DNA of 41,976 nt from Flavobacteriales bacterium. GTDB taxonomy: Bacteria > Bacteroidota > Bacteroidia > Flavobacteriales > Flavobacteriaceae. The stretch covers positions 1 through 41,976 of the forward strand of contig SGZG01000009.1 of NCBI GenBank assembly GCA_004214185.1, in the 5' to 3' direction. A program made the position numbers and the translations under genes. Position 1 is the stretch's first letter. Each line of letters starts with the position of its first letter. The notes under the pieces were generated by a model. It was not told where the DNA came from, did not search any database, and saw nothing but the letters and a program-made list of their open reading frames with translations. Shown here in pieces: positions 12,370-37,251 of the stretch.

Positions 12370-14244
12370 TTATTTAATCAGATCTAAACTTCTTTTAATA
12401 AAAGATGTTAATTCTTCTCCTTTGAGAAGGTTTTGAGAAAGTTTTGCTAAATCTAGCGACTGATTAATTAGTCTCTCTTTTTTAGCTTTACTTTTAGAAT
12501 TTAATATTTCAGAGCAAATTGGATTATTTACATTAACAATTAGGTTGTAAATTTCAGGCATATTTCCAAACATTCCATTTCCTCCACTTTGTTGCATCTC
12601 TTTCATTCTTCTCATAAACTCAGGAAGAGTTATAACAAATGGAGCTGAATCACTATCTATAGCTTCTAATTGAACTGTATATTTTTCTTTTGGTACAACT
12701 TCTTCAACGATTGATTTTAGTTTTTCTTTTTCCTTTTCATTTAATTTTGATACCTCTTTTTCATCTTTTTGAATAAGTTTATCTATTACATCAGCATCAA
12801 CTCTTGTAAATTTAATTTTTTCATTAGAGGTTTCTAGTTTTTGAATTAAATGACTTATAATTGGTGAATCTAGAAGGAGAACTTCATAACCTTTTTCTTT
12901 CGCTGCTTGAATATACGAATGTTGATCGTTAACATTCGAAGCGTACAGCACTATTAAATTTTCATCTTTGTCTGTCTGTGTTTTTGAAATCTTTTCTTTC
13001 AGCTCTTCGAAAGTAAAAAAGGTACTATCAACATTTGGATATAAAGCAAAATTTTGTGCCTTGTCAAAAAACTTATCTTCACTAAGCATTCCATATTCAA
13101 TGACAACTTTTATATCATTCCATTTTTCTTCAAAGCCTTTTCGATCTTTTTTAAATAATGAGTTTAGTTTATCAGCAACTTTTCTGGTTATGTAATTACT
13201 GATCTTCTTGACAGCCCCGTCAGCCTGAAGATAACTTCTAGATACGTTGAGTGGAATATCAGGGGAATCTATTACACCTCTGAGAAGTGTTAAAAATTCT
13301 GGGACAATGCCTTCAACATTATCAGTTACAAAAACTTGATTTTGATACAATTGAATCCTATCTTTTTGCATGTTAATATCATTTGATATTTTTGGAAAAT
13401 ATAGAATTCCAGTCAAGTTAAAAGGGTAATCAACATTCAAGTGTATGTTAAACAATGGCTCTTCAAACTGCATTGGATACAACTCTCTGTAAAATTCTTT
13501 GTAGTCTTGATCTTTTAAATCACTTGGTGTTTTAGTCCATGCTGGATTAGGATTATTTACTATGTCATCAACTGTTTCTTTAATTTCTTTTTCTTCTTTT
13601 CCTTCTCCAACTTTTTTAGAGATTTCTTTTGTTCCAAATTTGATCGGAACCGGCATGAACTTATTGTATTTTGTTAAAAGAGTTCTAATTCTGGTTTCTT
13701 CTAAAAATTCCTTTGAATCTTTACTAATGTGAAGAATTATTTCAGTCCCTCTATTTTCTTTGTCGCATTTTTTAAGGGTATATTCAGGTGATCCATCGCA
13801 GGTCCAATGTGCAGCAGGATCATTTTTGTATGATTTTGTGATGATTTCTACTTTGTCAGAAACCATAAAAGCAGAGTAAAATCCTAACCCAAAATGTCCG
13901 ATAATTCCACTGTCTTTTGCAGTGTCTTTATATTTTTCCAAAAACTCTTCAGCTCCAGAAAAAGCAACTTGATTAATATATTTTTTTACTTCATCAGAAG
14001 TCATACCAATTCCTTGATCAGTTATGTGTATTTTTTTTCCTTTTTTGTCAACTTTAATTTCAATTAGTGGATTACCAATTTCAACTTTATTTTCTCCAAT
14101 ACTACTTAAATGCTTTAGTTTTAAAGTTGCATCCGTAGCGTTTGAAATTAATTCCCTTAAAAAAATTTCGTGATCACTATATAAAAACTTTTTAATTAGT
14201 GGAAATATATTTTCTACTGAAACGTTAATTTTACCCTTGGCCAT
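12370..14244 (-). CDS. htpG: Chaperone protein HtpG (Hsp90 family)
   Basis: A cytosolic ATP-dependent chaperone of the GHKL/Hsp90 family, 624 residues, the same length as E. coli HtpG. The N-terminal ATPase shows FLRELISNATDA (Asn/Asp binding ATP-Mg), ITDQGIGMTSDE and IGHFGLGFYSAFMVSD. The middle domain has NVSRSYLQAD. A charged linker (KEISKKVGEGKEEKEIKE) at about 205-222 separates the first two domains. The start ATG 14244 gives MAKGKINVSVENIFPLIKKFLYS, typical of the family. The upstream region holds a motif set shared with hsp20 (14274-14313), which points to joint stress control. Confidence 0.97.
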   Translation of the reverse strand: MAKGKINVSVENIFPLIKKFLYSDHEIFLRELISNATDATLKLKHLSSIGENKVEIGNPLIEIKVDKKGKKIHITDQGIGMTSDEVKKYINQVAFSGAEEFLEKYKDTAKDSGIIGHFGLGFYSAFMVSDKVEIITKSYKNDPAAHWTCDGSPEYTLKKCDKENRGTEIILHISKDSKEFLEETRIRTLLTKYNKFMPVPIKFGTKEISKKVGEGKEEKEIKETVDDIVNNPNPAWTKTPSDLKDQDYKEFYRELYPMQFEEPLFNIHLNVDYPFNLTGILYFPKISNDINMQKDRIQLYQNQVFVTDNVEGIVPEFLTLLRGVIDSPDIPLNVSRSYLQADGAVKKISNYITRKVADKLNSLFKKDRKGFEEKWNDIKVVIEYGMLSEDKFFDKAQNFALYPNVDSTFFTFEELKEKISKTQTDKDENLIVLYASNVNDQHSYIQAAKEKGYEVLLLDSPIISHLIQKLETSNEKIKFTRVDADVIDKLIQKDEKEVSKLNEKEKEKLKSIVEEVVPKEKYTVQLEAIDSDSAPFVITLPEFMRRMKEMQQSGGNGMFGNMPEIYNLIVNVNNPICSEILNSKSKAKKERLINQSLDLAKLSQNLLKGEELTSFIKRSLDLIK

Positions 14245-14273
14245 ATTAATTTATTTTTTTTGATGTCAAAGAA

Positions 14274-14313
14274 TCAAATCCTATACCAAAATAAAGCTAA
14301 TGACAAAATGACA
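14274..14313 (-). promoter_or_regulatory. htpG stress-promoter module (TGWCA pair + TTGG...TTTGA)
   Basis: Read on the minus strand toward htpG: TGTCATTTTGTCA (14313-14301), 11 bases, then TTGGTATAGGATTTGAT starting at 14289, in which GG and GA are separated by 10 bases. The hsp20 promoter has the same elements with the same 11-base spacer. GG-N10-GA resembles a sigma-54 -24/-12 element (normally GG-N10-GC). Alternatively TTTG (14278-14275) could be a -33 box, with a weak TAAATTAA (14253-14246) as -7. Transcription from the -24/-12 reading would start near 14262, about 18 bases before the ATG. Confidence 0.55.
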
Positions 14314-36716: not shown

Positions 36717-36788
36717 CGACAAAATGTCACTATTTTTCTATATTTTAATGACATAATGACACTAATTTTAAGTTGGCATTTCATTTGA
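36717..36788 (+). promoter_or_regulatory. hsp20 stress-promoter module (two TGWCA pairs + TTGG...TTTGA)
   Basis: Two 13-bp boxes, CGACAAAATGTCA (36717-36729) and TGACATAATGACA (36749-36761), lie 32 bp apart centre to centre, about three helical turns. Eleven bases after the second begins TTGGCATTTCATTTGACT (36773-36790), with GG and GA 10 bases apart. The htpG promoter has the same box, spacer length and core. The core resembles a sigma-54 -24/-12 element. Alternatively TTTG (36784-36787), 19 bases, TATGTTTA (36807-36814) reads as a housekeeping promoter with one mismatch. Confidence 0.6.
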
Positions 36789-36831
36789 CTATTATGAAAT
36801 GTAAAATATGTTTAACTTAAAATAATACATT

Positions 36832-37251
36832 ATGAATTTAATTAGAAAACAACAAAATTTTTTACCATTTGTCTTTGATAACTTTTTTAGAGATACTTGG
36901 GACATTATGCCGGCAATTAATAATAATCATCCTGCAACCAATATAAAAGAAAGTGATAAAGATTTTATTATTGAATTTGCTATTCCTGGAAAGTCAAACG
37001 ATGATTTTGAAGTTGAATTAGATAAAAACTTATTAACTATAAAATCTAATGGAAGTGTTTCAGAAAATGATTATAACTATATGCAACAACAATTTAACTT
37101 TTCAACTTTTAGTAAATCATATGAACTTCCTGATTCAGTTGACTTAAATAAAATTGATTCTCATTATCGAAACGGGATGCTTACAATATTTCTTCCAAAA
37201 AGAAAAGAGTTTCATGCTCAACCAAAAAGATTAATTTCGGTAAAAAAATAA
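36832..37251 (+). CDS. Small heat shock protein, Hsp20/alpha-crystallin family
   Basis: A 139-residue holdase that binds unfolding proteins. The alpha-crystallin domain spans about 35-130 (NIKESDKDFIIEFAIPGKSN, NLLTIKSNG, the oligomer-forming loop YRNGMLTIFLPK), after an N-terminal segment rich in Phe and Asn (RKQQNFLPFVFDNFFRDTW). It ends PKRLISVKK, matching the usual I-x-V tail. It sits alone between a complex promoter region and a terminator, so it is a single-gene unit. The ATG start follows an AT-rich leader with no Shine-Dalgarno sequence. Confidence 0.95.
   Translation: MNLIRKQQNFLPFVFDNFFRDTWDIMPAINNNHPATNIKESDKDFIIEFAIPGKSNDDFEVELDKNLLTIKSNGSVSENDYNYMQQQFNFSTFSKSYELPDSVDLNKIDSHYRNGMLTIFLPKRKEFHAQPKRLISVKK

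Follow-up and report, generated by a model that had tools for sequence, protein, structure and literature searches.

The window, i.e. the whole stretch of 41,976 nucleotides that was analysed (G+C content 29%), contains two chaperone genes, each preceded by a copy of the same promoter module. The htpG ORF (Hsp90 chaperone; 12370..14244, minus strand) encodes 624 aa and matches Pfam HSP90 with 158.3 bits (cut-off 24.4), while the hsp20 ORF (small heat-shock protein; 36832..37251, plus strand) encodes 139 aa and matches Pfam HSP20 with 65.9 bits (cut-off 20.8). The module is 40 bp long and consists of a 13-bp sequence, TGWCA-N3-TGWCA, proposed to be an activator site (hereafter the operator), and, 11 bp further on, a sigma-54-type -24/-12 element that begins with a TTGG box. 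At htpG it runs on the minus strand from 14313 down to 14274 and reads TGTCATTTTGTCA-N11-TTGGTATAGGATTTGA (operator 14301..14313, -24/-12 element 14274..14289); at hsp20 it covers 36749-36788 of the plus strand and reads TGACATAATGACA-N11-TTGGCATTTCATTTGA (proximal operator 36749..36761, -24/-12 element 36773..36788). Both operators are exact matches, and both elements match the pattern and carry GG-N10-GA, as sigma-54-type promoters do. Genes and sites are as the first-pass annotation had them, the latter letter for letter. In addition, hsp20 has a distal operator, CGACAAAATGTCA (36717..36729, plus strand; one mismatch), 32 bp upstream of the proximal one and 43 bp before the TTGG box. From the spacing rule, transcription would be predicted to start near 14262 (minus strand) for htpG and near 36800 (plus strand) for hsp20.

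With up to three mismatches allowed, the composite pattern matched twice in the window, compared with a mean of 0.03 in dinucleotide shuffles (two matches were reached in 0/100); the 13-bp operator alone gave two exact matches (shuffle mean 0.18; 1/100 shuffles reached two). The earlier remark that there is no third copy holds for the composite within the window, and has to be amended for the distal hsp20 operator and for variants elsewhere in the genome (see below). The spacer agreement TAnnTTTA, which had been noted between the two sites, was rejected as a component of the module: in a set of 174 matches, in which some loci count twice, the sequence between operator and -24 box is not conserved and only A/T-rich, and the agreement looks accidental.

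Chaperone promoters in the genome and its relatives

The genome to which the window belongs is a draft (1.38 Mb, 60 contigs, 82.77% complete), and further copies of the module may therefore be missing from it. The strict pattern occurs at htpG and hsp20 only; with up to three mismatches one extra match appears, at dnaK (one mismatch), against none for the reversed control pattern. Variants of the module precede dnaK, grpE-dnaJ and groES. The TTGG box of the dnaK module lies 46 bp before the gene, with an exact operator 11 bp and a second one (one mismatch) 63 bp from the box. The grpE-dnaJ promoter has TGACATTTTGGCA (one mismatch) 12 bp before TTGGCAGTACTTTTGC, and the groES promoter has the exact operator TGTCAGACTGTCA 43 bp before TTGGCATAGAAACTGTT together with a weak proximal site (two mismatches) at 11 bp.

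Among 119 relatives, a relaxed composite pattern was present in only 28 (reversed control, 0), and the 30 loci fetched from them precede htpG (21; 20 by BLASTP and L017 by its first codons), grpE (5), dnaK (2), hsp20 (1) and a thioredoxin gene (1). Conservation upstream of orthologous htpG, on which the first-pass annotation had made its reading depend, is thus found. In a draw of 395 genomes from the phylum, 37 had the composite (reversed control, 0): 29/41 in the window's own family, 0/8 in the rest of the order, 7/49 in the rest of the class and 1/297 in other classes. All 30 loci fetched from this draw are chaperone genes, one being the htpG of the window. Since the composite was found in only 28/119 relatives and 37/395 members of the phylum, many promoters have diverged from it.

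A scan of 84,980 species returned at least 120 stretches with the composite and at least 121 matches. Bacteroidota titles are borne by 119 of the at least 120 stretches listed, some of these titles being genera that we take to be Bacteroidota; one title among the stretches listed, Scybalousia, belongs to Bacteroidales. The exception, L144, is titled Candidatus Saccharibacteria; no chaperone gene was found behind its composite, which might be a chance match or lie on a mis-binned contig. Among the matches listed, 116/121 precede grpE, htpG, dnaK, groES, hsp20 or clpB-like genes, genes being named after their best BLASTP hit in a small set of references that had been named by eye, eight of which were confirmed by Pfam. 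BLASTP assigned 109 of the 121 matches listed (grpE 45, htpG 43, dnaJ 9, dnaK 7, hsp20 3 and groEL 2); a grpE-sized ORF comes first in the nine dnaJ cases and a groES-like ORF in the two groEL cases. L119 is grpE, and for six further matches listed ClpB was the best NCBIfam match (two are fragments, and only L067 is over the ClpB cut-off). Not counted as chaperone were L144, L090, where a trigger factor gene lies 178 bp away, and L060, L074 and L103, where the stretch ends too soon.

Two A/T-rich intergenic regions might resemble each other by chance, and the low G+C content of the window and the seemingly accidental agreement of the spacers would fit this. We regard chance as refuted here: the shuffles of the window did not reproduce the pair; the reversed pattern gave nothing in the own genome, the 119 relatives and the phylum draw, and five matches against 23 true ones in eight genomes with three mismatches; and the distant matches listed stand before the same kind of genes, rather than at the random positions that the first-pass annotation had named as a ground for dropping its proposal.

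Sigma-54 identity of the promoters

The sequence TTGG.A-N5-TTTGA corresponds to a -24/-12 element in which GA replaces GC, and the general form of the element is TTGG.A-N5-TTTG followed by A, C or T. A set of groES promoters from 92 genomes (80 stretches and 12 loci), chosen by the gene and without using the motif, provided an independent sample; groES was found in 115/119 relatives. TGGCA is present within 220 bp upstream of groES in 88/92 promoters, and all 88 have GG-N10-G (GC 40, GA 30, GT 17 and GG 1). RpoN is encoded in the own genome (L045, with all three RpoN domains) and was detected in 117/119 relatives. In the other two, G108 (L368; 83% complete) and G018 (L018; 62% complete), RpoN was not detected, yet the module is present at groES and grpE, and the rpoN gene is therefore probably missing from their assemblies. 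Taken together, these data strongly support that the module is a sigma-54 -24/-12 promoter with a predicted 13-bp operator upstream.

For Flavobacterium psychrophilum, where sigma-A, sigma-54 and seven ECF factors are reported, sigma-54-type 5' ends have been mapped before groESL, lon, dnaK, grpE-dnaJ and htpG, all in one co-expression cluster, and clpB has a sigma-54 start and falls in another cluster (PMC9723704). The strongest induction of the sigma-54 promoter class is reported there for blood agar, heat not being named in that context (PMC9723704). Together with the target genes and their conservation, these mapped starts strongly support the idea, raised in the first-pass annotation, of a chaperone stress regulon with a sigma-54-like promoter.

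The other suggestion made there, an activator site above a promoter with a -33 TTTG box, finds no such support. As an alternative, a sigma-A promoter (-33 TTTG, -7 TAnnTTTG) under an activator or repressor site could draw on the TTTG that belongs to the element, since sigma-A boxes of the phylum contain TTTG (PMC9723704). The GG-N10-G in every TGGCA-bearing groES promoter argues against it, and so does a published motif finder that places the same genes in a sigma-54 class apart from sigma-A (PMC9723704); we consider this alternative very improbable. Control by HrcA/CIRCE, whose operator had been noted to look different from the present one, was also rejected: HrcA was over the cut-off in 0/119 relatives (one weak match, in G035), and CIRCE had no match in the window with three mismatches allowed.

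Operator phasing and the candidate activator

The operator was found within one mismatch in 76/92 groES promoters; 20 mononucleotide shuffles averaged 2.1 and never exceeded 4. At 31-33 bp, many groES sites coincide in part with the terminator hairpin that follows secG, and when sites with TGGCA or TGCCA were dropped, 58/92 promoters kept a site upstream of TGGCA and 34/92 did not. Within the hairpin, TGACAAGCTGGCA resembles the operator and lies 31-33 bp before the TTGG box (e.g. L305, L327 and L344), and terminator and activator site may therefore overlap.

With hairpin-type sites removed, 64 operator-to-TTGG distances remained for the 92 genomes, and these cluster around 11, 22, 32, 43 and 53 bp from the -24 box: 36 distances are of 10-12 bp, 3 of 21-22, 3 of 32-33, 18 of 41-44 and 2 of 52-54 bp, and 2 are of 3 bp. 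Among periods from 8 to 14 bp the best was 10.5 bp (R = 0.91 for the 64 distances and 0.86 for the 26 above 14 bp); because the genomes are related, shared ancestry inflates significance and the Rayleigh values are descriptive only. Different lineages use different helical turns, e.g. distances are 22, 31-34 and 41-45 bp in the symbiont family f16 (see below). The operators would accordingly lie on one face of the helix, a spacing that an activator fixed on one DNA face would give, and a palindromic upstream site in helical phase is what characterises an enhancer site.

Two strong enhancer-binding proteins, EBP1 and EBP2, are encoded in the own genome. EBP1 (L043:3380-4543, minus strand) has a receiver and an AAA+ domain and no HTH match. 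Its gene lies directly downstream of grpE-dnaJ and has dnaJ as a neighbour in G015 (L208) as well; through EBP1, the chaperone operon may be linked to a two-component signal. EBP2 has an AAA+ domain and a Fis-type HTH, without a receiver domain match, and is encoded in the cluster miaB-EBP2-lptE-TPR-secG-groES-groEL. Sigma-54 promoters require an enhancer-binding protein of the GAFTGA type; among 17 EBP2 orthologues the loop reads GAFTGA or GSFTGA, and the HTH residues SERTLYRK are invariant. A structure model of EBP2 (mean pLDDT 55.8) was too poor to use.

In 76/92 genomes the EBP2 gene is located upstream of groES, no more than about 4 kb away; in the 16 genomes with no EBP2 near groES (one stretch is short), nine still have the operator. 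A scan of 20 genomes for PF00158 (E 1e-30) found the EBP2 type in all 20. Eight of them, including genomes of 0.34 and 0.6 Mb, have no other match at that threshold, and each of these eight has at least one chaperone promoter site, some with one to three mismatches. Each of the 98 genomes in the phylum draw that belong to the window's class matched EBP2 with an E value of 5e-115 or lower; EBP2-like matches from other classes are for the most part weaker, the two ranges overlapping somewhat.

From these observations we consider it likely that the chaperone genes are driven by sigma-54 promoters with EBP2 as the activator at the 13-bp operator. Assigning EBP2 to the operator is a sequence-based prediction, and the operator might instead be bound by another enhancer-binding protein, by a mixed EBP1/EBP2 oligomer or by a regulator of another family. 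The position of the EBP1 gene next to grpE-dnaJ would suit such a reading, as would the three to six PF00158 proteins of larger genomes. The missing HTH match in EBP1 speaks against it, as do the eight genomes in which EBP2 is the sole strong PF00158 match and a chaperone-gene site is present, and the 11 genomes (described below) in which operator and slot-encoded EBP2 are missing together; on this evidence we rate it as unlikely.

EBP2 as activator would imply the following course of events. RNA polymerase with sigma-54 would sit waiting at the -24/-12 element, and an EBP2 dimer would bind TGWCA-N3-TGWCA, always on the same DNA face and between one and five helical turns upstream; several promoters have two operators. 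EBP2 oligomers would then spend ATP to open the promoter, and htpG, hsp20, dnaK, grpE-dnaJ and groESL (and clpB in some relatives) would rise jointly. The signal would presumably be damaged or unfolded protein. Since EBP2 lacks a receiver domain, the simplest idea is a partner that holds it inactive; this partner could be a chaperone of the regulon itself, from which EBP2 is freed under stress, although we put this forward tentatively and the last step is a guess. A helix-like stretch, EREILYKVLFDMKKDLNDLK, lies between the AAA+ lid and the HTH (residues about 278-308). Most EBP2 orthologues conserve it, unlike the remainder of the linker, and it is a candidate contact for such a holding partner.

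PspF-type proteins likewise combine AAA+ with a Fis-type HTH without a receiver domain, and the activity of PspF is restrained by a partner protein. EBP2 differs from PspF in its longer linker, in its neighbours (lptE, secG and groESL) and in its score against the PspF model (270.6 bits; cut-off 443.55). It also stays below the cut-off of the NtrC model (321.8 bits; cut-off 558.6), in line with the missing receiver match.

Small symbiont genomes and related systems

The 68 genomes of family f16 range in size from 0.2 to 1.3 Mb, and 66 have a groES match; the sequence upstream of groES was compared for 48 genomes, with one region each (the duplicate loci L403 and L408 were dropped). Where EBP2 is present in its slot, the operator was found within one mismatch in 31/37 genomes; where it is not, the operator was found in 0/11 and the full sigma-54 element within 180 bp in 0/11. 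These 11 genomes represent three genera (2, 2 and 7 genomes) and hence few independent events. In 10/11, miaB is still in place and followed by secG-groES or groES, and the EBP2 gene is therefore gone from its slot; in L439 miaB was not recognised, and an EBP2 label at 24.5% identity was set aside as spurious.

Several members of f16 depart from the general picture. In G554 and G519 groES has no operator, the groES operator of G550 and G512 was found only with two mismatches, and G567 is degenerate. G568 (309,299 bp) has EBP2 beside groESL, yet no recognisable groES operator or -24 box. Four very small genomes (0.34 and 0.6 Mb) have no strong enhancer-binding protein match besides EBP2, and the operator precedes groES in all four and grpE in three; in three 0.6-Mb genomes grpE has TGTCATNATGACA and TTGGCAAATCTTTTGC.

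Retention of RpoN in Walczuchella, Uzinura and Blattabacterium has been called unusual in print, Sulcia being listed without RpoN, and RpoN in Walczuchella has been tied tentatively to nitrogen (PMC3971599). Our data bear on this remark, in that the chaperone regulon may account for the retention of sigma-54 in some insect symbionts of tiny genome size. On balance we favour a broader reading in which EBP2, lacking a receiver, would serve the whole class Bacteroidia as master heat-shock activator, respond to the availability of chaperones and do the work that falls to sigma-32 or HrcA in other bacteria; the regulon would then be the reason why flavobacterial insect symbionts of about 0.26-0.6 Mb keep sigma-54, and EBP2 and the operators would have been lost together in the lineages without EBP2. 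Control by HrcA/CIRCE and sigma-32 acts coordinately on the same chaperone genes; unlike in those systems, the sequence here points to positive control through sigma-54 and an enhancer-binding protein.

The SM4 promoters of F. psychrophilum resemble those described here in having -24/-12 elements at chaperone genes and a sigma-54-dependent regulator beside lptE, and the activator was left open among three PF00158 proteins (PMC9723704, ISME Commun 2021). The operator was not found in the main text of that report, and the present analysis adds the operator, the phasing and a candidate activator. A survey of Bacteroidota predicted sigma-54 promoters for GroEL/ES, IbpA, GrpE, DnaJ, DnaK, HSP90 and proteases, above all in Flavobacteriia, and deals with the promoter element alone, an upstream activator site not being found in its main text (PMC12316311, PLoS One 2025). 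Neither the operator nor its phasing nor its activator turned up in a literature search that left aside supplements and most subscription journals. Within the literature searched, these three are new; earlier work had mapped (2021) and predicted (2025) sigma-54 promoters of chaperone genes. With a 13-bp site, a rule for its phasing and a single candidate activator, the circuit becomes open to testing.

Finally, genome G019 has, besides the copy at htpG, a full module before a thioredoxin gene (L030:1162-1563, minus strand), and a thioredoxin-family gene is also listed with a sigma-54 promoter in F. psychrophilum (PMC9723704).
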